Notes under the pieces: generated by a model
The model's input: the letters and a program-made list of their open reading frames with translations, nothing else
Databases searched by the model: none
What the model was told of the DNA's origin: nothing
Position numbers and translations under genes: made by a program
Assembly: GCA_016342345.1 (NCBI GenBank)
Contig: JAEINO010000041.1
Location: 1 to 35,743 of the forward strand
Length of the DNA stretch: 35,743 bases
Direction: 5' to 3'
Source: Pseudodesulfovibrio sp.
GTDB lineage: Bacteria > Desulfobacterota > Desulfovibrionia > Desulfovibrionales > Desulfovibrionaceae
Shown: positions 27,640-35,743 of the stretch, in pieces
Layout: every line of letters starts with the position of its first letter
How positions within the stretch are numbered: position 1 is the stretch's first letter

Positions 27640-28117
27640 CTTCGGCCTCCTCAATGTATTTGGCGACATTCTCGTCGATTTCATGCTTGCAGTCATAGGC
27701 CAGCGACTTGACATGCTGAATACGCTCAACCCTACGGGGCTGTGTGAGTTCATTGTAAAAGATGTTCAGCGTGTCGTGGTCGTCAAATATTTCTTCGTGC
27801 ATGGTGGCCTTGTCAGGGATGATTTCCTCGCGCTCGGCAACATCCAGACCAATCCGGTCAGCCATGAGCCGGACAAGATCAACCGCCACGTCTCGACGAC
27901 CGGCCTGCACAAGTCGGGAAAACAGATCAAGTATCAAATCTACCGGATTCTGATAGCTGCTATCCTTGTGCGCCGTCTCTTCGGCATATTTGTAAACCTG
28001 TGCCTGACTTCGGCGGCAAACGTCTTTCATCGTGCCCATTCCGAAAATATCCAGACACCTCCGAAAAAACGTACTTGTTTTGTCGATGACTATTTTTGAT
28101 GAGAGCTCGGCAGTCAT
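27626..28117 (-). CDS. Phage regulatory protein candidate (CII-like position)
   Basis: 163 aa. The helical sequence includes VCRRSQAQVYKYAEE and LDLFSRLVQAGRRDVAVDLV. The pattern and its place directly after the Cro-like gene suggest a CII/CP76-type lysogeny regulator, but no certain DNA-binding motif is visible. ATG 28117 has GGAGG upstream. Confidence 0.6.
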   Translation of the reverse strand: MTAELSSKIVIDKTSTFFRRCLDIFGMGTMKDVCRRSQAQVYKYAEETAHKDSSYQNPVDLILDLFSRLVQAGRRDVAVDLVRLMADRIGLDVAEREEIIPDKATMHEEIFDDHDTLNIFYNELTQPRRVERIQHVKSLAYDCKHEIDENVAKYIEEAEGASR

Positions 28118-28150
28118 TTTATAATCGCCTCCGGGTAATCTGATATGGGA

Positions 28151-28351
28151 TTATTGTGTTGCTTGGGACTTTGTTGGTCGCTGATCGCCGTAAATGAAGG
28201 GCCAGAGCTTTTCGAGTGTGTCAGAACGAACAGCCTTACCACTGAGCAATTTTGAAATAGCGGATTGTGATACGTCTGATCTTTTGGCGAGATGGGTCTG
28301 ACTCCATCCCGTGTCAAACAACATTTTTTTCAAGTCGCTTCGTATTTTCAT
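28151..28351 (-). CDS. Cro-like XRE-family regulator
   Basis: 66 aa with a clear helix-turn-helix: WSQTHLAKRSDVSQSAISKL. It is the first gene of the leftward early operon and faces the repressor gene across a short operator region. No Shine-Dalgarno precedes the ATG (TTCCCCTATG), and the predicted transcription start is about one base upstream, so the message may be leaderless. Confidence 0.83.
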   Translation of the reverse strand: MKIRSDLKKMLFDTGWSQTHLAKRSDVSQSAISKLLSGKAVRSDTLEKLWPFIYGDQRPTKSQATQ

Positions 28352-28358
28352 AGGGGAA

Positions 28359-28387
28359 CAATATTCTAACTAGAATTACAAAGTCAA
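28359..28387 (-). promoter_or_regulatory. Leftward early promoter with embedded operator
   Basis: Minus strand: TTGACT (28387-28382), then 5 bases, then the operator, then a weak -10 around 28364-28359. Transcription would begin near 28352 and drive the replication operon. Confidence 0.65.
28363..28376. promoter_or_regulatory. Operator palindrome ATTCTA-N2-TAGAAT (left)
   Basis: A perfect 14-base dyad, ATTCTAACTAGAAT, within the leftward promoter spacer. The same dyad recurs at 30053 and, imperfectly, at 30085. Likely bound by the CI-like and/or Cro-like protein. Confidence 0.72.
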
Positions 28388-28443
28388 CCGCAATATTCGA
28401 GTTGGACTGTGACATGCATTTAACCATGAGGTATCTGCAAGCT

Positions 28444-28830
28444 ATGACAAACTATGAGAAGCTATTAAGCAGCATTGAAAAAATTGCCATTGAGCAATTT
28501 GGAAACCCTACAAAAATGGCTGATTCTTTGGATTTTCCTCAATCAACTGTTTCAAAAATGCTTAACAAAAAATCATGTCCACGCATTGACACAGTCTGTG
28601 AGCTTCTCGACAAACTCAACGCACAAATATTATTCCCAGATGAGCATCAAACAGAACCGCAAGGCTGCATAACGCCAGAAGCAAAGGCCATTGACACCCT
28701 TATCACGGCCATGCGTTCAGGGGGAGCGGTTGACGCGGCTATACGCGATGCGGTTCTTCGACAAATAGAATCTATGTTTGAAAAAAAAGAAAACCCAAAA
28801 GAAAGTGAAGAAAGAAGGTTTGCAAGCTGA
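28444..28830 (+). CDS. CI-like repressor (XRE helix-turn-helix, no peptidase domain)
   Basis: 128 aa from ATG 28444; upstream in-frame starts (28414, TTG 28402) are possible. The HTH is FGNPTKMADSLDFPQSTVSK and is followed by a variable linker and a helical C-terminus (TPEAKAIDTLITAMRSGG) likely for dimerisation. There is no LexA-like Ser/Lys protease, so RecA-triggered self-cleavage is not expected. It is transcribed away from the Cro-like gene and presumably maintains lysogeny at the shared operators. Confidence 0.8.
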   Translation: MTNYEKLLSSIEKIAIEQFGNPTKMADSLDFPQSTVSKMLNKKSCPRIDTVCELLDKLNAQILFPDEHQTEPQGCITPEAKAIDTLITAMRSGGAVDAAIRDAVLRQIESMFEKKENPKESEERRFAS

Positions 28831-29047
28831 AATATATAAATGGAGGCTTATCTATTAATCGTCATAATAGGAATAGCCAATATAGGGGAAAGTCCCAATC
28901 CGGAGTTGGTAAACTAAAGTTGGTTGACTTCGTCTTAGGTATTGACTAGCAATATTTTTGTTTTCAGAATACCTTGCTTTTTTGGCCCACAAATAGCATA
29001 TACTAACTATAGGGCAATTCTGTCCGCCTTAATATATGGAGAGCCGT
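28831..29047 (+). promoter_or_regulatory. Intergenic region with a promoter for the downstream pair
   Basis: No secure gene. TTGACT (28942-28947), 17 bases and CAGAAT (28965-28970) form a plausible sigma-70 promoter about 75 bases before the next start; a second TTGACT lies at 28924. A 40-codon open stretch after the repressor stop lacks a usable start. Confidence 0.5.
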
Positions 29048-29605
29048 ATGCCTCAAGCAGAGCTGGCTTTTATCAAAATATTCAACGAAATCATCGAAAG
29101 TTTAAACACCATTCTGGAAAATGACATGAATGAAATGGACAAGGCACGTGTTATGCGAAAGATAAACTCTGACGCAAAGATGCTGATGTCCATGAACAAA
29201 GCTTATGGCCTGTCTCTTTTGGGAAGCATCGCCGGAGCAAATGGTGACATCCCTAAAATGCATAAAAATCATCAAGTATCTTTGAAATTCAATTCGGACA
29301 TTGTTTTATCAAAAAATTATGCCGTATCAATGCGTGTGTGTGGCCTTTTGAAAGAATCTTACGATTATACCAAACAACTCCTGTCTAAAAATCAGGATGA
29401 TCCCACATTGGTTAATCTTCTTGCCACCCTGTCGTTTGATATGGGCGACGAAAAAAGATACCGAGAACACGCTGAACAATACTATATTATGACACAGGAA
29501 AAGCACCCCAATTGGGCTGATTTTCAAAAAGAAATGAATGAGATCAAAGAGCTTAACAAATTTTGTAGCTCTGCTACGGCGCACGCCTGCATGGTAGGAA
29601 TGTAA
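29048..29605 (+). CDS. Helical-repeat (TPR-like) protein coupled to a MazF-like gene
   Basis: 185 aa from ATG 29048 (GGAG six bases upstream). It is all-helical. The second half looks TPR-like: SMRVCGLLKESYDYTKQLLS, PTLVNLLATLSFDMGDEKRY, AEQYYIMTQEKHPNWADFQK. No catalytic motif is seen. The stop is followed immediately, with no spacer, by the ATG of the PemK/MazF-like gene. The close coupling and its own promoter suggest a two-gene unit expressed from the prophage. It could act as partner or antitoxin, but this is inference. Confidence 0.65.
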   Translation: MPQAELAFIKIFNEIIESLNTILENDMNEMDKARVMRKINSDAKMLMSMNKAYGLSLLGSIAGANGDIPKMHKNHQVSLKFNSDIVLSKNYAVSMRVCGLLKESYDYTKQLLSKNQDDPTLVNLLATLSFDMGDEKRYREHAEQYYIMTQEKHPNWADFQKEMNEIKELNKFCSSATAHACMVGM

Positions 29606-29944
29606 ATGCCTTTGGCTACCGGTGATGTGGTTTTTGCATGGTTTCCCTATCAGGAAGGCCCGGCAGATAATCTACATCCTACAGTTGTTCTTGTGCCCGA
29701 TCTTCCAGGTGGTTCAGCCTTGGTTTGTTGCGTCACCACAAAGAAAAACAGATTTGATAGCTGCATCGAACTTCACCCTGAGGATTTTCTTGGAGGTGGC
29801 ATGGAAACTTGGCCAAGCTACGTACGTCCATACCGTATAGCCACCATTAATACGGATGAAATGCGACGTAAGTTGGGTCAGTTACGGCCAGAAATTATTA
29901 AAAAAATAAAAACACCCATAGAAAAACGACTCACAGACATTTAA
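29606..29944 (+). CDS. PemK/MazF-like protein
   Basis: 112 aa. The fold pattern starts with GDVVFAWFPYQEGPADNLHP and TVVLVPDLPGG, followed by ALVCCVTTKKN, as in MazF/PemK beta-barrel ribonucleases. The C-terminus has RIATINTDEMRRKLGQL, the usual closing strand and helix. MazF-type toxins cut mRNA, but the catalytic residues are not certain here. It is directly joined to the upstream helical gene and followed by a strong terminator, which makes a self-contained cassette between the repressor and the rightward early promoter. Confidence 0.68.
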   Translation: MPLATGDVVFAWFPYQEGPADNLHPTVVLVPDLPGGSALVCCVTTKKNRFDSCIELHPEDFLGGGMETWPSYVRPYRIATINTDEMRRKLGQLRPEIIKKIKTPIEKRLTDI

Positions 29945-29975
29945 TAAAATCCAAAAAGAACTACTCGAAAAATTG

Positions 29976-30000
29976 CCCCGCCCAGGCGGGGTTTTCTTTT
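29976..30000 (+). terminator. Rho-independent terminator
   Basis: CCCCGCC and GGCGGGG form a 7-bp GC stem with a 2-base loop, followed by TTTTCTTTT. It ends the helical-repeat/MazF-like cassette. Confidence 0.9.
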
Positions 30001-30052
30001 ACCCCACTCTTTCATTTTTTCTCTACCAGCTTATATTTTTTTGCCCTTTTTT

Positions 30053-30066
30053 ATTCTAATTAGAAT
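30053..30066. promoter_or_regulatory. Operator palindrome (right, distal)
   Basis: Perfect dyad ATTCTAATTAGAAT, matching the operator at 28363. Its spacing to the next copy at 30085 is 32 bases, about three helical turns, which suits cooperative repressor binding. Confidence 0.75.
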
Positions 30067-30073
30067 TTTCTTC

Positions 30074-30102
30074 TTGACTAAAATATTCTAATGGGAATAT
30101 CG
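30074..30102 (+). promoter_or_regulatory. Rightward early promoter with embedded operator
   Basis: TTGACT (30074-30079), then 5 bases, then the imperfect dyad ATTCTAATGGGAAT (30085-30098), then a weak -10 at about 30097-30102. The hexamer, the 5-base gap and the operator position are identical to the leftward promoter. It should drive the rightward operon and first transcribe the structured leader. Confidence 0.68.
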
Positions 30103-30146
30103 TGATTTCAACAACACGACGAAACCGGAATAGCCTGCGCCACGGC

Positions 30147-30193
30147 CAGCAAGTACGGAGAAAGCGTGGGAATGACCGCCAACAAGTACCGAG
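30147..30193 (+). repeat. Direct repeat in the early leader
   Basis: GCCAGCAAGTACGGAG (30147-30162) and GCCAACAAGTACCGAG (30178-30193) are 14/16 identical, 31 bases apart. The bases 30103-30263 contain no gene with a credible start; one frame reads protein-like through this repeat but lacks an initiation codon. Confidence 0.4.
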
Positions 30194-30263
30194 CACGGAA
30201 AGTCCAGGCAACATGAGGACGCTCGACGGCAGGGAAAGGCGAGGAAGATGGAGACGATAGTTC

Positions 30264-30481
30264 TTTGACAGATGGGTATGGGAAAGGCCCCGACAGCAAT
30301 TATCTAAAGTCCGGCGATAAGCCGGATAGCCTCAGCCAGCAGGACCGCTGCCCGAAAGCAGCAGATAATGGCATAGAGGTACGTCATGCGTACTCCTTTG
30401 GAGTTATTGGGCGCGGCAGTGCGCCCCCCGTCTCCTTGGCTTTGTTGTCGGGGCCTTCACAACCCATACCCATCTATCAAA
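30264..30481 (+). ncRNA. Structured module 1: long outer stem with several inner hairpins
   Basis: Arms 30264-30295 and 30446-30481 pair over 30 base pairs: TTTGA, one mismatch, AGATGGGTATGGG with its complement, a small internal loop, then AAGGCCCCGACA with TGTCGGGGCCTT. Inside are a 7-bp helix ATTATCT/AGATAAT (30299-30305, 30363-30369) that encloses hairpins TCCGGC/GCCGGA and GCTGC/GCAGC, then GTACG/CGTAC (30379-30393), ACTCC/GGAGT (30392-30404) and GGGCGC/GCGCCC (30409-30426). No gene fits. This looks like a large, ornate RNA or a leader with a regulatory fold. Confidence 0.6.
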
Positions 30482-30504
30482 CAAGTTGTAAAGTTCTTTG
30501 AATG

Positions 30505-30602
30505 TTCGGAGATTTGACCGGTCATGGGTTGGCCTTGATCGACACATCCTGTCGATTTGTAAGGTGGGGCGAATTGGTCGCCCCACTGGTCAAGTCTCCG
30601 AA
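30505..30602 (+). ncRNA. Structured module 2: outer stem with two inner hairpins
   Basis: TTCGGAGATTTGACC (30505-30519) pairs with GGTCAAGTCTCCGAA (30588-30602) over 15 positions with a single U-G wobble. Inside are the 7-bp hairpin ATCGACA/TGTCGAT (30538-30556) and the 9-bp hairpin GTGGGGCGA/TCGCCCCAC (30564-30586), giving a multibranch junction. Confidence 0.62.
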
Positions 30603-30604
30603 CC

Positions 30605-30702
30605 GTCGGCACCCCTTGAGGAAGTGTTTGAGCAGACATGCCCTCCTAAACCTGAGGGGCGAGGAATTGAACACCCCTCGCCCCGTCCCAAGGGTTGCCG
30701 AC
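30605..30702 (+). ncRNA. Structured module 3: outer stem with two inner hairpins
   Basis: GTCGGCACCCCTTG (30605-30618) pairs with CAAGGGTTGCCGAC (30689-30702) with one mismatch. Inside are a weaker hairpin (GAGG/CCTC plus GTGTT/GACAT, about 30618-30645) and the 9-bp GGGGCGAGG/CCTCGCCCC (30656-30684). Length (98 bases), layout and the GGGGCGA hairpin match module 2, so the two may be related copies. It ends 20 bases before the first start codon of the operon. Confidence 0.62.
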
Positions 30703-30722
30703 AAATACCAACAGGAGACGGA

Positions 30723-30926
30723 ATGTTTTTAGCCAAGTTCAACACATCCAAAGGACCGGCATCGCTGCCTATAGACAAGGCCACCGTATTGGAAGGGCTA
30801 CGTCTGAATGGATTTAATGGCGGTCACACGGTCCAAGCTATCAACAACTTGAGCCGGGGTATCCCGGTCATAGTTGGAGAATGCATCATAGAAAGAGTCA
30901 GGCGGAATACCCCGCGTTGGAACTAG
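30723..30926 (+). CDS. Hypothetical protein, first gene of the rightward operon
   Basis: 67 aa, ATG after AGGAGACGGA. The sequence includes LPIDKATVLEGLRLNGFNGG and AINNLSRGIPVIVGECII. No family is recognised. Small size and position right after the structured leader suggest an early accessory protein. Confidence 0.65.
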   Translation: MFLAKFNTSKGPASLPIDKATVLEGLRLNGFNGGHTVQAINNLSRGIPVIVGECIIERVRRNTPRWN

Positions 30927-30945
30927 GGAGAATCGGAGATTAATC

Positions 30946-31161
30946 GTGCCAGATTTTGACGCCACTCCTTGCGCCGTCTTCCCGTCACAGGGAGGGAAAG
31001 CACACTCTTTTACGCTCCACGTTTTTCCCGGAGACAGTCGGGAAACATGGACGAAAAACGGGGGCAGTCAAAACAATTTCCGGGTCGCCATCAATTACAA
31101 ATATTACCGGACAAAAGACCGCAAATGGTTTTTTTTACCAGAACCGGACTTGAATGGATGA
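30946..31161 (+). CDS. Hypothetical protein with GTG start
   Basis: 71 aa. GTG 30946 has GGAGA upstream; no ATG is available in frame near the start. The sequence (PDFDATPCAVFPSQGGKAHS ... WFFLPEPDLNG) is not recognised. Its stop overlaps the next start. Confidence 0.55.
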   Translation: MPDFDATPCAVFPSQGGKAHSFTLHVFPGDSRETWTKNGGSQNNFRVAINYKYYRTKDRKWFFLPEPDLNG

Positions 31162-31433
31162 TACGCCAACATGCGCTTGCCCTGCTCGGGCTTGTAGGTC
31201 CGCAAGCGCAGTCCCAAGCCCTGCCAAACCTGCCCCGCGGGACAAAAGTATGGTGGGAAAAAAGCGAAGCCGACGCCGAAAACGTCATGAAATGCGAAAC
31301 CGGAGGCGAAACCATGATCGAGACATCCACCAGAACCGAACCATTTCAGGACGAACACAACGAATGGATGACCTACATCATAGGCAGCAAGCCACCGGTC
31401 CCTTTGTCCGACCTGAAAGCGAGAAGATCATGA
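31158..31433 (+). CDS. Hypothetical protein
   Basis: 91 aa. The ATG at 31158 overlaps the previous stop (ATGA), favouring this start over the longer frame upstream. It includes LPRGTKVWWEKSEADAENVM and FQDEHNEWMTYIIG. Not recognised; member of the run of short coupled early genes. Confidence 0.55.
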   Translation: MIRQHALALLGLVGPQAQSQALPNLPRGTKVWWEKSEADAENVMKCETGGETMIETSTRTEPFQDEHNEWMTYIIGSKPPVPLSDLKARRS

Positions 31434-31771
31434 CAGCCACCTGGACAACCGAATCCATGGAATTTCTCTGCACATCCTGCCACTGGACCGGCCCGGCCAT
31501 TGAACTAAACGGCCTGGCTGAAAACGAATGTCCTAAATGCGGTAGCGTGGCCGTTTCAAAACCGCCCACAACAAGCAAAGGCATCCTGCACCTTGTCACC
31601 CAAGACAACCAGCCATACGGAAGCCACCGCAAATGCTGCGAAAAATGCGGCAAGGGCATCCACAGCATGAAGGGCGTCGAAGCGGGCGAGGCCTACACCA
31701 GCCACCGCCAGTTTTACAAACAGGCCGAATCAAACGGATGGACGGCTTGCACTTCCTTATCTGCGAACTAG
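31430..31771 (+). CDS. Zinc-ribbon hypothetical protein
   Basis: 113 aa from ATG 31430 (ATGA overlap with the previous gene). CTSCHWTGPA ... ECPKCGS forms a zinc-ribbon-like pair of CxxC motifs, and a further CCEKCGKG follows. The frame is open further upstream but there it reads as Arg-rich non-coding sequence. Likely nucleic-acid or protein binding. Confidence 0.65.
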   Translation: MTATWTTESMEFLCTSCHWTGPAIELNGLAENECPKCGSVAVSKPPTTSKGILHLVTQDNQPYGSHRKCCEKCGKGIHSMKGVEAGEAYTSHRQFYKQAESNGWTACTSLSAN

Positions 31772-31784
31772 GAGTAGTAAGATC

Positions 31785-32348
31785 ATGCCTGAATTTATCC
31801 CTATCGAAACATTGTCCTCTCCATGCCCTGGCTGCGGTGGCGTTTTACGCACAACGAAGCAGGTCCAAGACTTTGTAGAATTTGAATGCGAGGGGGCCTT
31901 CTGTGGGGGAGACACTATCCCTCATGAGTATTTCGGCAAAGGGCAACCATGGAGCCAGTACGGTGCATCGTTGGAGATGTTTTTATGCCCCGAATGCTCC
32001 GTTGAAATATACGACATCATTTTGTGCGTTCCCTCATGGTCTGACCATAGTGATCCTCATTTTCTTCACGACGGGTTTGAAATCGCGGATCGAGAGCAAT
32101 TGCTCCAGGTCAAAGCCCAAGAGGAGACTTGGCGATGTGTTCGCAAGTATTGCGTGAATACAAATATGGGTGAGTTCTCGAAAGTATATCGCAGGTTTGA
32201 TTTGCATGTTTGGGGGCCTTTCCTCGTTGGGGAGTACCTCGGAGTTATGTGGAATGAGGCTTCCACTTTTTTGGAGAAGCGCGGCCCCGTGTGTCTTGAG
32301 CATATGAAGGCGTGGGAACAGACAGAAGCAGCCGAGAATGAGAGGTGA
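31785..32348 (+). CDS. Cys-rich hypothetical protein
   Basis: 187 aa. CPGCGG and FCGGD near the N-terminus and FLCPECSVEIYD at about residue 66 suggest zinc binding; the rest is mixed alpha/beta. Not recognised. Part of the same cluster of short metal-binding early proteins. Confidence 0.6.
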   Translation: MPEFIPIETLSSPCPGCGGVLRTTKQVQDFVEFECEGAFCGGDTIPHEYFGKGQPWSQYGASLEMFLCPECSVEIYDIILCVPSWSDHSDPHFLHDGFEIADREQLLQVKAQEETWRCVRKYCVNTNMGEFSKVYRRFDLHVWGPFLVGEYLGVMWNEASTFLEKRGPVCLEHMKAWEQTEAAENER

Positions 32349-32350
32349 AC

Positions 32351-32596
32351 ATGTCAAAAGCATTAGCAAAATTAATTGGTGAAGCCCCGGCGCAGATTCT
32401 GAAAAAACATGGGCTGGCTGTTGTCCCTGAACATCTGGTTGAGCAGCTTGTCCGCGTGAGCGGTGGCGACGACCAGAAGGTCAAGGCTGTGCAATTCATA
32501 ATAGATACACGGATCGAGATTGAAGCGAGTGGAAAGATATCTTTCAGACCTTCGGCGAAACAAAATTTTGATGACGGCTGTTACGGCAACCTTTGA
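32351..32596 (+). CDS. Hypothetical protein
   Basis: 81 aa from ATG 32351, which follows GAGGTGAAC. It is helical and begins MSKALAKLIGEAPAQILKKH. No motif recognised. Confidence 0.58.
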   Translation: MSKALAKLIGEAPAQILKKHGLAVVPEHLVEQLVRVSGGDDQKVKAVQFIIDTRIEIEASGKISFRPSAKQNFDDGCYGNL

Positions 32597-32607
32597 GGGA
32601 GATCGTG

Positions 32608-32868
32608 GTGAACTATATCCAGATCAAGACGGCCCCGACTTACGAGCAGCTCATGGACATGGAGAAAGCTGCCCTTGTTCGCCTGGTCGGTCGTCTCACC
32701 GCCGAATACATCGAGATCCGGGACACGGCCCGTGCCCTAGTCGAGTCCGTTGATCCCAAAAAGCCCGGCGTTACCTACGAGTCGTGGCCGGAAATGGAAC
32801 GACTGGAAAAGCTGCTCGGCATTGATGAGCGAAATGTCAATGAGAATGAGAGGACAGTGGGCAAATGA
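32608..32868 (+). CDS. Hypothetical protein with GTG start
   Basis: 86 aa. AGGGAG lies just before the GTG pair at 32605/32608; a TTG at 32593 is less likely. A long amphipathic helix spans YEQLMDMEKAALVRLVGRLT. Function unknown. Its stop overlaps the next start (ATGA). Confidence 0.55.
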   Translation: MNYIQIKTAPTYEQLMDMEKAALVRLVGRLTAEYIEIRDTARALVESVDPKKPGVTYESWPEMERLEKLLGIDERNVNENERTVGK

Positions 32869-33044
32869 GCAAAACACACTACGAAATACCAGCTATTGAC
32901 GACAGATTTATTCGTGTCGCTTGTCGGAGCCGTGAGTTCCAGAAGTACACCAAAGACCTTGGCCGCGTTGATTGTGCGCGATGCCTCAAGACGGAAGTCT
33001 ACCGCGAGGCATGGGCGAAAATGAAGAAAGAGAATGGAGGCTAG
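32865..33044 (+). CDS. Small hypothetical protein, 59 aa
   Basis: The ATG at 32865 overlaps the previous stop. The protein is basic with a CARC pair (GRVDCARCLKTEVYREAW) that may bind metal. It fits the dense early gene cluster. Confidence 0.65.
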   Translation: MSKTHYEIPAIDDRFIRVACRSREFQKYTKDLGRVDCARCLKTEVYREAWAKMKKENGG

Positions 33045-33050
33045 GCAGAT

Positions 33051-33389
33051 ATGAATGAAATAAAACTTTTCTCCCCCTGCGATAGCTGCCCACACCGGGA
33101 CGTGCCTCACGGTGAATGCCTGTCTTGTACCTTCACCGAGGCCCAGGCGCGGCTCCTTGAACTCGACACCTACGCCAACAAAGCCCTTGAGTATTTGAAT
33201 CTTGAGGACGGAGACAAGGACGCTTTCAAAGAATTGCGCCGCGCCTTCGGCCTTGAAAATCGGTTTGTCTGTGTCGATTGTGGAGACTCTCAAGAATTAC
33301 ATCATCCATTTACGGTCTGCCACGAATGCGGTGGAGACATAGAAACGCGAGTCGTCAAGATTCGGACAAATGTTGGAGGGGCAGTTTAG
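33051..33389 (+). CDS. Zinc-binding hypothetical protein
   Basis: 112 aa. There are two cysteine clusters: CDSCPHRDVPHGECLSC at residues 10-26 and VCVDCGDSQELHHPFTVCHE with CGG at the end. The linker is helical. Two zinc sites are likely; target unknown. Confidence 0.65.
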   Translation: MNEIKLFSPCDSCPHRDVPHGECLSCTFTEAQARLLELDTYANKALEYLNLEDGDKDAFKELRRAFGLENRFVCVDCGDSQELHHPFTVCHECGGDIETRVVKIRTNVGGAV

Positions 33390-34142
33390 ATGTCTATCAA
33401 AACATGGATGGCAAAAGGCTCCATGGCCCTCAATATGATGAATGGGAATCAGACTCAGCATCGCGTCCCAATGAATCCACATCCGCGTCTTGGGTTGCTC
33501 GGGAACGGTGAGGTTATCCGCGACGATTATTTTGTATGGGACTCCCCTCAAGCGGTCTGCCCGATCACTGACAAAGGGATGTACCGCATTATCAGGCAAG
33601 CCCCATATCTTCCCGGCGATGTCGTTTGGGTCCGAGAACCGGGAAAGGTGATCGACGTCAAGGACTACGCCGAAGACGGCATGGATTTGGTTATCGAATA
33701 CAAGGCCGATGGGAAGGGAGCTAATATAGCCGTACCTACTCGCCTGTCCGATATGTGGGAACTCAAATACAAAGATCGGTGGCCCGTTCCTAATTGGGTT
33801 TCCGAGCATCAAGGCATCCCCAACGGCATTTTCAAGGAAGCTGCACGGACATTCCTCAAGATTACTGGCGTTCGCATTGAGCGTATTCAAGACATTTCAG
33901 AAGAGGATGCTTTTGCAGAGGGCATACGCCCATTGCAAGATGGTTGTTACAGACCTGTTTACCCGGCTTTCCTCTTCGGTCCAGACCGTCCGAGCAGTTC
34001 CCATTGCGAACAGACGGCTGTCAAATCTTTCAAAACTCTTTGGGATTCCATCTATGCAGGGTCATGGGAAAAGAATTCATGGGTATGGGTTTACGAATTT
34101 GAACGTACAGACATGCCTGACGGCTGGCTGACGCAAAATTGA
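33390..34142 (+). CDS. ASCH-like phage protein
   Basis: 250 aa. The layout matches a recurrent phage protein with an ASCH/PUA-like fold: GDVVWVREPGKV in the middle, then FLKITGVRIERIQDISEEDA, FAEGI, and the C-terminal FKTLWDSIYAGS and WVWVYEFER. Such proteins are thought to bind nucleic acid; their phage role is not settled. GGAGGGG precedes the ATG, which directly follows the previous stop. Confidence 0.75.
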   Translation: MSIKTWMAKGSMALNMMNGNQTQHRVPMNPHPRLGLLGNGEVIRDDYFVWDSPQAVCPITDKGMYRIIRQAPYLPGDVVWVREPGKVIDVKDYAEDGMDLVIEYKADGKGANIAVPTRLSDMWELKYKDRWPVPNWVSEHQGIPNGIFKEAARTFLKITGVRIERIQDISEEDAFAEGIRPLQDGCYRPVYPAFLFGPDRPSSSHCEQTAVKSFKTLWDSIYAGSWEKNSWVWVYEFERTDMPDGWLTQN

Positions 34143-34154
34143 TAGGCAGTTGTC

Positions 34155-35009
34155 ATGAAAGTTGGAAGCCTTTTTAGCGGTGCCGGATGCGGCGATCTTG
34201 GCCTTGAATGGGCCGGGTTTGAACACGCTTGGTTCTGCGAAACAGATGAATACGCAAGGCAAATTCTCGCCATGCGATGGCCCGGTAAGACGATCTATGG
34301 AGATATCAAGGAAATAGATTTTACTTCGGTCCCATCGGTCGACGTTCTTGCCGGTGGTTTCCCCTGCCAAGATATCAGCACAGCCGGGCCGGGCAAAGGG
34401 ATTCAGGGTGAACGAAGTGGATTATGGAGCGAATATGCTAGAGCCATTGCTGAAATACGACCCCGTTACGCACTCATTGAAAATAGCGCGGCCCTCGTTG
34501 TTAGAGGACTTGATTCTGTCCTCTCCGACCTTGCCGCGCTTGGGTACGATGCGGAATGGCATTGTATCCCGGCGGCCTCCTTTGGCGCACCTCACAAGCG
34601 CGACCGCATTTGGATCGTGGCCTACCCCAACAGTTCAAGACTCAAAGAATACAGCCGGGCCGAGCCAATTCACCAGGAACACCCCGCCGTTGAATGTGGA
34701 AGTGGTGAAACGCCCATTTCCAACACCAAGGGCGACCGGCGGTCTGTGCGGCGGGTCGGGGCATTTTCAACAAATGGAATATTTAAAGCAAGCCGGTGTG
34801 CTGACGGAAGCGGAACGCGCTTCGATGGTTCAGGGCAATGGTGGGAAGCTGAGCCCGGACTGGACCGAGTGGTTGATGGGACTTCCAATCGGGTGGACCG
34901 ACTTAGATGCATTGGTAACGGGCAAGTGCCGCATTGCACCTATTTCATCGGGCGATTGATCCAAGAACACAGCCGCCAAACGTTTTCAAAAGCAGTGGGG
35001 ATGAAATGA
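34155..35009 (+). CDS. DNA (cytosine-5) methyltransferase
   Basis: 284 aa. Motif I FSGAGCGDLGLEWAGF binds SAM; motif IV GGFPCQDIS holds the catalytic Cys. Motif VI is ENSAAL (usually ENV), motif VIII KRDRIWIVAY, and motif X is RCIGNGQVPHCTYFIGRLI. The target-recognition part is short. It probably methylates phage DNA against host restriction. From 34435 to 34959 the same DNA carries a second open frame, described separately. Confidence 0.9.
   Translation: MKVGSLFSGAGCGDLGLEWAGFEHAWFCETDEYARQILAMRWPGKTIYGDIKEIDFTSVPSVDVLAGGFPCQDISTAGPGKGIQGERSGLWSEYARAIAEIRPRYALIENSAALVVRGLDSVLSDLAALGYDAEWHCIPAASFGAPHKRDRIWIVAYPNSSRLKEYSRAEPIHQEHPAVECGSGETPISNTKGDRRSVRRVGAFSTNGIFKASRCADGSGTRFDGSGQWWEAEPGLDRVVDGTSNRVDRLRCIGNGQVPHCTYFIGRLIQEHSRQTFSKAVGMK
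34435..34959 (+). CDS. Overlapping-frame phage protein inside the methyltransferase gene (WPTP type)
   Basis: 174 codons in a different frame from the methyltransferase, with GGAG six bases before ATG 34435. The product reads like a known free-standing phage family: SLLEDLILSSPTLPRLGTMR, SATAFGSWPTPTVQDSKN, FPTPRATGGLCGGSG, and GGKLSPDWTEWLMGLPIGW. The family is usually seen beside or fused to phage cytosine methyltransferases. Whether both frames are made here cannot be decided by reading, but the ribosome site and intact motifs support it. Confidence 0.5.
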   Translation: MLEPLLKYDPVTHSLKIARPSLLEDLILSSPTLPRLGTMRNGIVSRRPPLAHLTSATAFGSWPTPTVQDSKNTAGPSQFTRNTPPLNVEVVKRPFPTPRATGGLCGGSGHFQQMEYLKQAGVLTEAERASMVQGNGGKLSPDWTEWLMGLPIGWTDLDALVTGKCRIAPISSGD

Positions 35010-35142
35010 AAGAAGCAACAAAGGCAACAAGCACGAAGCCTGCCGCCTTTATCCAATCCGTCGGGAACGCCTTAATCTCGATCTTCCAGTTTCCACTCTC
35101 CGTTGGGGCTTCGGTTGCAGGCTGTATACGATTCATTTCCAC
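34945..35142 (-). CDS. Possible small membrane protein on the opposite strand
   Basis: 65 aa, begins MEMNRIQPATEAPTESG. A hydrophobic helix AAGFVLVAFVASFIS lies in its second half. The ribosome site is weak and the 3' end overlaps the methyltransferase gene. It would follow the minus-strand zinc gene. Low certainty. Confidence 0.3.
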   Translation of the reverse strand: MEMNRIQPATEAPTESGNWKIEIKAFPTDWIKAAGFVLVAFVASFISSPLLLKTFGGCVLGSIAR

Positions 35143-35290
35143 AAGCGCAAGCTACGCCGAACTCCCAACGAGTTTTGTTAATTGGATGATGGGAAACAGT
35201 GACCCCACGGCCACACTTGCAATCAGCCAACAAGATCGGATGCCCGGTCACTTCATGAGGTCCAACATCGAAAACAAAATCTTTGGTCAT
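35072..35290 (-). CDS. Small zinc-finger-like protein, opposite strand
   Basis: 72 aa from ATG 35290 (AAGGA seven bases upstream). Two pairs, CKCGRG and CACGNES, suggest a zinc site, and the composition is protein-like (HEVTGHPILLAD; TRWEFGVA). It would be the only minus-strand gene in the rightward operon. A competing plus-strand frame exists over the same DNA. Confidence 0.5.
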   Translation of the reverse strand: MTKDFVFDVGPHEVTGHPILLADCKCGRGVTVSHHPINKTRWEFGVACACGNESYTACNRSPNGEWKLEDRD

Positions 35291-35376
35291 AAAAAATCCT
35301 TCGTTTAGAGGGTTAATCAACACAAAGGAAATGCATGTTGTGTGCCAAAAAAACGCACTATCAGCAGGGAGTGGCC

Positions 35377-35667
35377 ATGAAAGAATTTTGGAAGAATGAA
35401 GACGGCAATAAGCCCGAAGATATTATCAGCGAAGAAGAGGTTGAAAGCGTCCACGGCTATGCACAGTTCGGCCCGTTTCACACCAAGCGCGAGATCATCA
35501 ATCGCGGGGTTCTGAAATGTGCCATGGGCTACCACCAAGGGAATACTGCTCGGCATATCCTGCACGACCACGGATTGATCGACTGCATGTATGGCGAGGG
35601 TTACAGGCTCACAACCAAGGGCCGTGCCTACTTAGTTGCCACTTGGAATATCGAATCGATCAACTAA
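35377..35667 (+). CDS. Hypothetical protein, winged-helix-like C-terminus
   Basis: 96 aa from ATG 35377 (GGGAGTGG upstream). The second half, ARHILHDHGLIDCMYGEGYR then LTTKGRAYL, looks like a winged helix. Function unknown. Confidence 0.6.
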   Translation: MKEFWKNEDGNKPEDIISEEEVESVHGYAQFGPFHTKREIINRGVLKCAMGYHQGNTARHILHDHGLIDCMYGEGYRLTTKGRAYLVATWNIESIN

Positions 35668-35687
35668 TCCGCAATGGAGTGATGAAA

Positions 35688-35743
35688 ATGAGTGAAGTTA
35701 ACAGACCAGACGAAAAACGAGACACGCCACCACCGGCACCGGG
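35688..35743 (+). CDS. Partial CDS at the window edge
   Basis: An ATG at 35688 (or 35682, same frame) follows GGAG. The first residues are polar (SEVNRPDEKRDTPPPAPG) and the gene runs off the end. Cannot be identified. Confidence 0.5.
   Translation, partial: MSEVNRPDEKRDTPPPAP

Follow-up and report, generated by a model that had tools for sequence, protein, structure and literature searches.

Antitermination by the put RNAs of phage HK022 involves no protein factor. These RNAs, as described in PMC9378689, are about 70 nucleotides (nt) long, form two stem-loops, lie in one copy near each of the PL and PR promoters, and work in cis at the early transcripts. Here we analyzed a phage leader from Pseudodesulfovibrio sp. 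that invites comparison with put and with several other systems. The window, by which we mean the whole 35,743-nt stretch analyzed (contig JAEINO010000041.1, assembly GCA_016342345.1), was identified as phage by matches to terminase, major head, tape measure, and integrase families. In its rightward operon, a segment (30264-30702) that folds into three stem-closed modules lies ahead of the first gene, and is itself preceded by a conserved RNA domain (the 5' domain) and a boxA signal.

As described in PMC12691694, boxA binds NusB-S10, and such complexes protect ribosomal RNA (rRNA), phage, and CRISPR transcripts. The gammaproteobacterial boxA consensus is given as GYTCTTTAANA (PMC5725501). In rRNA, boxA is found together with a leader-trailer helix, which in E. 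coli needs more than 17 base pairs (bp) and is cut by RNase III, according to PMC10250234. The GOLLD and ROOL RNAs, which have profiles in Rfam, are described as ornate and noncoding, occurring in phages and prophages, frequently close to transfer RNA (tRNA) islands, with tRNAs sometimes inside GOLLD (PMC12286853).

Set beside these systems, the 5' domain is like put in being a structured RNA that would open an operator-controlled early transcript; it differs in its length (about 120-185 nt) and in occurring once in the window, the comparison covering position, size, and copy number. Lambda nut likewise places a boxA in an early phage leader, but here a predicted long closing stem adjoins boxA instead of the short boxB hairpin, and no N-like protein was recognized among the neighboring genes by Pfam and PHROGs, beyond which no dedicated search for N was made. 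The locus shares with rRNA operon leaders a boxA of the host genus type, a second boxA between units, tRNA content in some relatives, and a long stem around folded RNA directly past boxA (module 1 and several relatives). In contrast to those leaders, it belongs to a phage operon, encloses a cargo of about 90-340 nt without rRNA, and any release by RNase III is putative. The boxA upstream of CRISPR arrays also fronts a long untranslated RNA (PMC12691694), but the phage cargo contains no CRISPR array, a single sub-threshold CRISPR-repeat match (E 0.79) falling outside the modules. Closest in kind, though not by sequence, are GOLLD and ROOL, from which the units differ in being smaller and in lying behind boxA; the original prediction had compared them as a class while claiming no sequence match, and indeed no Rfam family reached its gathering score in the window.

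Read from its sequence, the locus comprises a conserved RNA domain, an rRNA-type boxA, and stem-closed, exchangeable RNA units (Table 1). We consider it probable that the locus resembles an rRNA operon, with noncoding RNA protected by boxA and preceded by an early-leader RNA, and the arrangement suggests that such phages produce their own noncoding RNAs with rRNA transcription machinery borrowed from the host. Searches of open-licence papers in PubMed Central listed none that, by title and abstract, deals with the domain or with modules led by boxA in phages of this kind. The parts are of known kinds (boxA, phage noncoding RNA); the exchangeable-cargo arrangement is, as far as our searches of that literature reach, new.

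Table 1. Features of the rightward leader and its surroundings (window coordinates)
Feature	Position	Strand	Evidence or remark
Operator-like dyads around the promoter: TATTCTAATTAGAAT (30052-30066) and TATTCTAATGGGAATA (30084-30099)	30052-30099		repeat search
Predicted sigma-70-like promoter, TTGACT at 30074	30074-30103	+	consensus scan
Conserved 5' RNA domain, 138 nt, covarying helices	30107-30244	+	model R2, 111.3 bits (R2 training row)
boxA 1, core GTTCTTTGA, then CAG	30260-30268	+	likeness to rRNA-operon boxA of G001
Module 1, stem-closed multibranched RNA, 206-nt span	30270-30475	+	29 bp in predicted closing stem
CCGTCTCCT in module 1, complementary to Shine-Dalgarno region of first gene	30428-30436	+	complement search, also in G019
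boxA 2, core GTTCTTTGA	30493-30501	+	
Module 2, inner hairpins, 100-nt span	30504-30603	+	predicted 16-bp closing stem
Module 3, stem-closed, 98 nt, hairpin GGGGCGAGG/CCTCGCCCC	30605-30702	+	13 bp in predicted outer stem
Shine-Dalgarno region of first gene, AGGAGACGG	30713-30721	+	complementary to 30428-30436
First gene of rightward operon, 67 aa	30723-30926	+	73% identical in G019

The leader RNA domain and boxA

Searching 36 genomes in the genus gave two kinds of relative. In G009 (two loci) and G030 the shared stretch precedes the modules (about 30115-30270), and in G019 modules 1 and 3 are shared. We used a covariance model (R2) that was built from 11 sequences and leaves out boxA; it matches once in the window. 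At E <= 0.05 it returned 29 places, spread over 25 of the 348 genomes searched in the order. Sorted by eye, 15 places were kept (13 genomes of seven genera, all in the host's family), 12 were dropped (8 after reading; 4 unread, L080-L083, E 0.029-0.041), and two in G063 were left undecided. The latter two copies (L072, L086) look like half of the domain and carry CTAGGCCGTAG and GGCAAGTAGGC. The first hits to G009 and G030 came from a blastn query that included boxA, and those to G012, G023, G065, and G233 from a model (R1) that includes it; the boxA-free R2 recovered all six. Further loci came from pattern scans that covered viral contigs and 84,980 species genomes: L025, L026, L055, L056, and L058, all from patterns without boxA, and repeats of G023 and G012; a GAGCACGG-variant domain pattern added L097-L102, and a cargo pattern L103. 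L057, L099, and L060 repeat G023, G077, and G012, and each was counted once. A match in G216, intergenic between redox-enzyme genes, and one in Streptomyces (L059) were set aside by eye as chance; a weak R1 match in G045 lay in a different, coding place.

The helices of the domain covary. With 25 distinct sequences, the covariation score was 0.307, compared with 0.084 for shuffled alignments (0 of 500 as high) and 0.010-0.058 for structures slid along the alignment; 10 of 16 pairs carried changes on both sides, and 92.1% of the cells paired. This last share is favored by the fitting of the alignment to the model, and kinship can lift the remaining figures above shuffles, but the slid controls keep that kinship. 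R2 training rows match by construction, and alignments A9 and A10 were fitted to the R2 structure; on the first 19 domain sequences the score was 0.329 versus 0.100 shuffled. We also rejected two other identities for the stretch: a cobalamin riboswitch, suspected in the G023 domain by eye, had no Cobalamin match up to E 10, and an arginine-rich, basic frame at about 30102-30260, a candidate N-like protein, was discarded because neither G009 nor G030 keeps it open (by eye).

Past the domain, the direct repeat AGTTCTTTGA occurs exactly at 30259 and 30492. The original prediction had noted this repeat as flanking module 1, and the repeat stands, but not as the flank of an insertion: it looks like a boxA of the host kind, because the rRNA leader and spacer of G001, a species of the same genus, carry similar sequence. 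The leader of G001 holds GTTCTTTGAGAG and GGTCTTTGACAATTAAATAG and its 16S-23S spacer AGATCTTTGACAG, and the window boxA, GTTCTTTGACAG, agrees with GTTCTTTGAGAG, GGTCTTTGACAA, and GATCTTTGACAG of that leader and spacer. The rRNA identity rests on this one sister species, since a 16S search of the window's genome and of G004, G006, and G009 gave no match (5 of 14 controls were missed as well). The motif G[CT]TC[AT]TTG[AG] was found on the same strand within 80 nt of the domain end in 12 of 19 loci, compared with an expected 0.006 per locus (relatedness ignored). G019 has two boxA, as the window does, though it lacks the 5' domain. We infer the direction of transcription, on which boxA would stand ahead of untranslated RNA on the transcribed strand. 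Elsewhere in the host genome, outside the window, L033:1501-1522 (G000 C18) carries a boxA-like GTTCTTTGACAATTAAATAAGC followed, by eye, by hairpins, and is perhaps another boxA-led RNA.

Stem-closed modules and exchange of cargo

The segment 30264-30702 folded at -225 kcal/mol, compared with -150.3 +/- 6.7 kcal/mol for 100 dinucleotide shuffles (z -11.1), and the wider stretch 30100-30730 gave a z of -10.4 (20 shuffles). Three structured modules had been predicted here from the letters alone, and their arms and hairpins agree with what we found; the folding above shuffles likewise upholds the prediction of structure at the RNA level in a leader behind an early promoter of operator type. The arms pair 30261-30282 with 30463-30484 (22 nt, 91%) and 30284-30299 with 30442-30457 (16 nt, 94%) in module 1, 30504-30522 with 30585-30603 (19 nt, 89%) in module 2, and 30605-30618 with 30689-30702 (14 nt, 93%) in module 3. 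Stem lengths of 30, 15, and 14 bp had been given; the predicted folds have 29, 16, and 13 bp, and the stem of module 1, but not those of modules 2 and 3, is longer than the 17 bp that the E. coli helices must exceed. The predicted stems of 29 and 16 bp begin 1-2 nt past the two boxA. Modules 2 and 3 do carry the two 9-bp GGGGCGA hairpins reported for them, but they are 46% identical in a forced alignment, in which 20 of the 39 pairs of module 2 are broken and 9 gapped, and because the sequences are unlike, the common layout is no evidence of common ancestry.

In G019, the best relative (76% in a local alignment of 216 columns), there are modules 1 and 3, another unit like module 1, and the same first gene. 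Module 1 is 71% identical over its length and module 3 68% locally; module 3 also weakly resembles the last module of L025, L026, and G023 (43-52%). The alignment with G019 requires one- and two-base gaps that break the frame of the open reading frames (ORFs) over the segment (e.g., 30265-30501, 78 aa), which are therefore unsupported, in keeping with the prediction that there is no credible gene here. The segment had no match among 50,697 phage records, from which very near records may be absent, and ARAGORN called no tRNA in the window. Within 29950-31000, two sub-threshold Rfam matches (E 0.79 and 1) fell on a hairpin at 29972-29997, outside the modules.

Up to 450 nt downstream of each of 14 boxA sites (12 loci) were folded. 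At 11 sites boxA is followed after 0-11 nt by a closing stem of 9-32 bp, and the unit that this stem closes measures 87-344 nt. Long stems recur in G019 (32 and 24 bp), G030 (30 bp), L025 (22 bp), G065 (24 bp), and L056 (23 bp); among these and module 1, 0-5 of 40 shuffles did as well, and the stretch from domain to gene was more stable than shuffles in most loci.

The content of the slot behind boxA varies from phage to phage. In an all-against-all comparison of 17 loci, 15 of 136 pairs matched, falling into seven groups. Directly behind boxA, ARAGORN called a tRNA-Ser(TGA) in the two G009 loci and in L026, where the tRNA begins about 3 nt past boxA despite the lack of a clear predicted unit; no tRNA was called in the other module-bearing loci scanned, except for G135, whose tRNAs lie further downstream. 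At the Rfam gathering score, the leaders of 11 relatives gave, in L020, L023, L025, and L026, only tRNA outside the leader, and nothing in the seven further loci. As evidence of exchange, L026 and L103 share a 24-nt 5' arm (96%) and are identical over 132 of 132 nt from the 3' arm onward, whereas the 98 and 146 nt that they enclose have no match at E 0.001, and L025 and L026 repeat this pattern with a 24/24 arm. Between the two G233 loci the difference is one stem-closed unit of about 144 nt directly past boxA; the next 236 nt are 99% identical. BoxA and module go together, and the domain is separable from the unit that they form: L055, which has neither boxA nor module, reaches its gene 44 nt past the domain; in L100-L102 only the domain is present (by eye); and in L103 the domain runs into a gene without boxA, a boxA (GATCTTTGACA) and module lying about 3 kb downstream. 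By sequence, the 5' domain is thus an element apart, present also in phages that lack boxA and modules. In relatives the slot holds tRNA-Ser or other cargo, so that noncoding, exchangeable cargo seems to describe the modules better than the antiterminator itself does.

The cargo of L025, L056, and L103 has common ends around a variable middle (GGCGGCGTGGAA ... AGACACGC ... GCCGGAGTAGCG(C/A)CCGGCC) and forms a recognizable ornate family; no hits came from a pattern that combined boxA with L025-type cargo. The two G009 loci (L021, L022) carry an identical 112-nt tRNA-Ser cassette and the same following genes (by eye), and differ in their operators and in the regions upstream, which gives the impression of a swapped immunity region. 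In G135, tRNA-Pro and tRNA-Ser genes lie about 0.35 kb past the domain end (L088:2694-2864).

Promoter, operators, and first genes

Upstream stretches of 20 loci were inspected. Most have, by eye, dyads comparable to those of the window (weak in L058 and G077) but of different sequence, so that one leader RNA appears to serve different immunities. A TTGAC-type hexamer stands upstream in these 20 loci, with TTGCC in G087. The promoter scan by itself is no evidence, because 11 sites were found in 28000-35743 compared with 8.3 expected; we infer a transcription start near 30107 because conservation in relatives begins there. Just upstream of the promoter lie a MazF/PemK-like toxin gene (29606-29944) and a terminator-like hairpin (29975-29992); a terminator scan found no more terminators than in shuffles.

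The first gene has no Pfam or PHROG match. The second (30946-31433) appears as two overlapping frames where G019 has an uninterrupted 161-aa ORF, reflecting either genuine decay or an assembly error. The other rightward genes tested in the window matched a cytosine methylase and one PHROG of unknown function, and otherwise gave weak or no matches. Downstream of the leader in relatives, 5 of 11 loci tested have recombination-type genes (RecE-like in G030 and L025, RecT-like in G087, Gam-like in G064, and a single-strand-binding protein with a weak Sak4-like match in L055); the rest have families of unknown function or nothing.

Readings of the locus

We propose that the rightward early transcript of this temperate phage would open with the leader RNA of the 5' domain, continue through boxA, a long closing stem around folded cargo, a second boxA, and two further stem-closed modules, and then enter the genes. 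From what is known of boxA, the signal would recruit host NusB and S10 and let polymerase cross several hundred untranslated nucleotides without Rho termination. The closing stems, like rRNA leader-trailer helices, would fold the cargo, RNase III-type enzymes could release it, and the product would be a stable noncoding RNA. Related phages, as their sequences show, swap the cargo in one slot: tRNA-Ser, a tRNA-like RNA, or an ornate RNA. For the 5' domain our best guess, a tentative one, is a put-like antitermination role, in which it may act in cis on the early transcript.

Several results weigh against this proposal. The covariation that the original prediction had looked to in relatives is strong in the 5' domain and weak in the modules: module 1 has 7 compensatory, 5 one-sided, and 17 broken pairs against one G019 copy (G019a) and 9, 8, and 37 against the other (G019b). 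A boxA motif alone is common, GTTCTTTGAMA occurring 11 times in the host genome compared with 9 for the reversed pattern, and in other host genera (G135, G087, L097, L098) structured RNA follows the domain without a recognizable boxA. At 3 of the 14 sites (G233a, L026, G012) the predicted stem spans 355-445 nt and delimits no clear unit. Closing stems are often equaled by shuffles, the shorter ones by 5-25 of 40; the counts were 2 for module 1, 8 for module 2, 10 for G009a, 13 for L026, 5 for G023, 11 for G012, 25 for G233a, 14 for G233b, 5 for L025, 4 for G065, and 3 for L056, with 0 only for G030 and the two stems of G019. In L056 (z -1.2), G009a (-1.4), G087 (-1.6), and G077 (+1.8), the stretch past the domain shows no unusual stability. 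Finally, the window's own rightward operon showed no recombination gene among the proteins tested, so that "early" rests on position and on the relatives.

The whole leader could instead be one cis-acting antitermination or anti-Rho device of the put or nut type, with the modules as structured spacers that are never released. The boxA, the location behind an operator-type promoter, and the strong folding of the window would all fit such a device, but we consider it unlikely: unrelated sequence, even a tRNA, replaces the cargo, the domain occurs without modules in L055 and L100-L102, and in L103 the module is some 3 kb from the domain. The link to antitermination in the original prediction survives in the boxA of its direct repeat, whereas its put-like modules do not, since both the good covariation and the put-like position belong to the 5' domain, which that prediction had not noticed. 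The tRNA-Ser at three loci, along with tRNA-like units bearing T-arm-like hairpins in G023 and L026 (by eye), brings to mind tRNA-derived or tRNA-mimicking modules that act in trans on host translation or decoy tRNA-cleaving defenses. This is quite improbable given that G023 scores at chance level as a tRNA-Sec (21.8 bits, E 2.8), that tRNA calls are lacking in the window and in the other module-bearing loci noted above, and that module 1 has no tRNA features by eye.

Module 1 might alternatively regulate translation in cis by pairing of CCGTCTCCT with the Shine-Dalgarno region AGGAGACGG. The 9-nt complement is perfect (p 0.013), G019 has a 10-nt complement to its own first gene (0 of 300 shuffles), and CCGTCTCCTT is kept in both of its module-1 copies, but mononucleotide shuffles are the sole control for these figures. 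Nine other loci had nothing comparable (longest complement 0-6 nt), for which reason the pairing is at best specific to module-1 cargo; a regulatory pairing may be peculiar to it, and as an account of the module we find it very improbable. An insertion of the kind of a miniature inverted-repeat transposable element (MITE), or another dispersed element, with AGTTCTTTGA as its target-site duplication, would explain why a 10-bp direct repeat flanks long inverted repeats. It is scarcely credible, and this part of the original prediction falls: the segment is single-copy in the 4.15-Mb genome, where the two other matches are the element's own arms, and the repeat is a boxA that fronts unrelated cargo in other phages.

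The reading that we favor adds to phage leaders an RNA domain supported by covariation and, as a second element, a modular locus for noncoding RNA with parts that move as units and swapped cargo that offers a ready list of natural variants. It ties ornate phage RNAs to a transcription mechanism and provides a searchable signature, namely a boxA with a closing stem immediately after it. Should the cargo RNAs prove to be made, phages would be drawing on the rRNA antitermination machinery of the host for noncoding RNA among their first products. More speculatively, and as a possibility that we would not yet press, temperate phages of the Desulfovibrionaceae may carry an "RNA cargo bay", a scaffold with the logic of an rRNA operon (boxA plus closing stem) into which noncoding-RNA cassettes are swapped. 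If so, the cassettes would be tRNAs, tRNA mimics, and ornate RNAs, the cargo would be among the first products after induction or infection, and the slot would be an RNA counterpart of the accessory-gene hotspots of phages.
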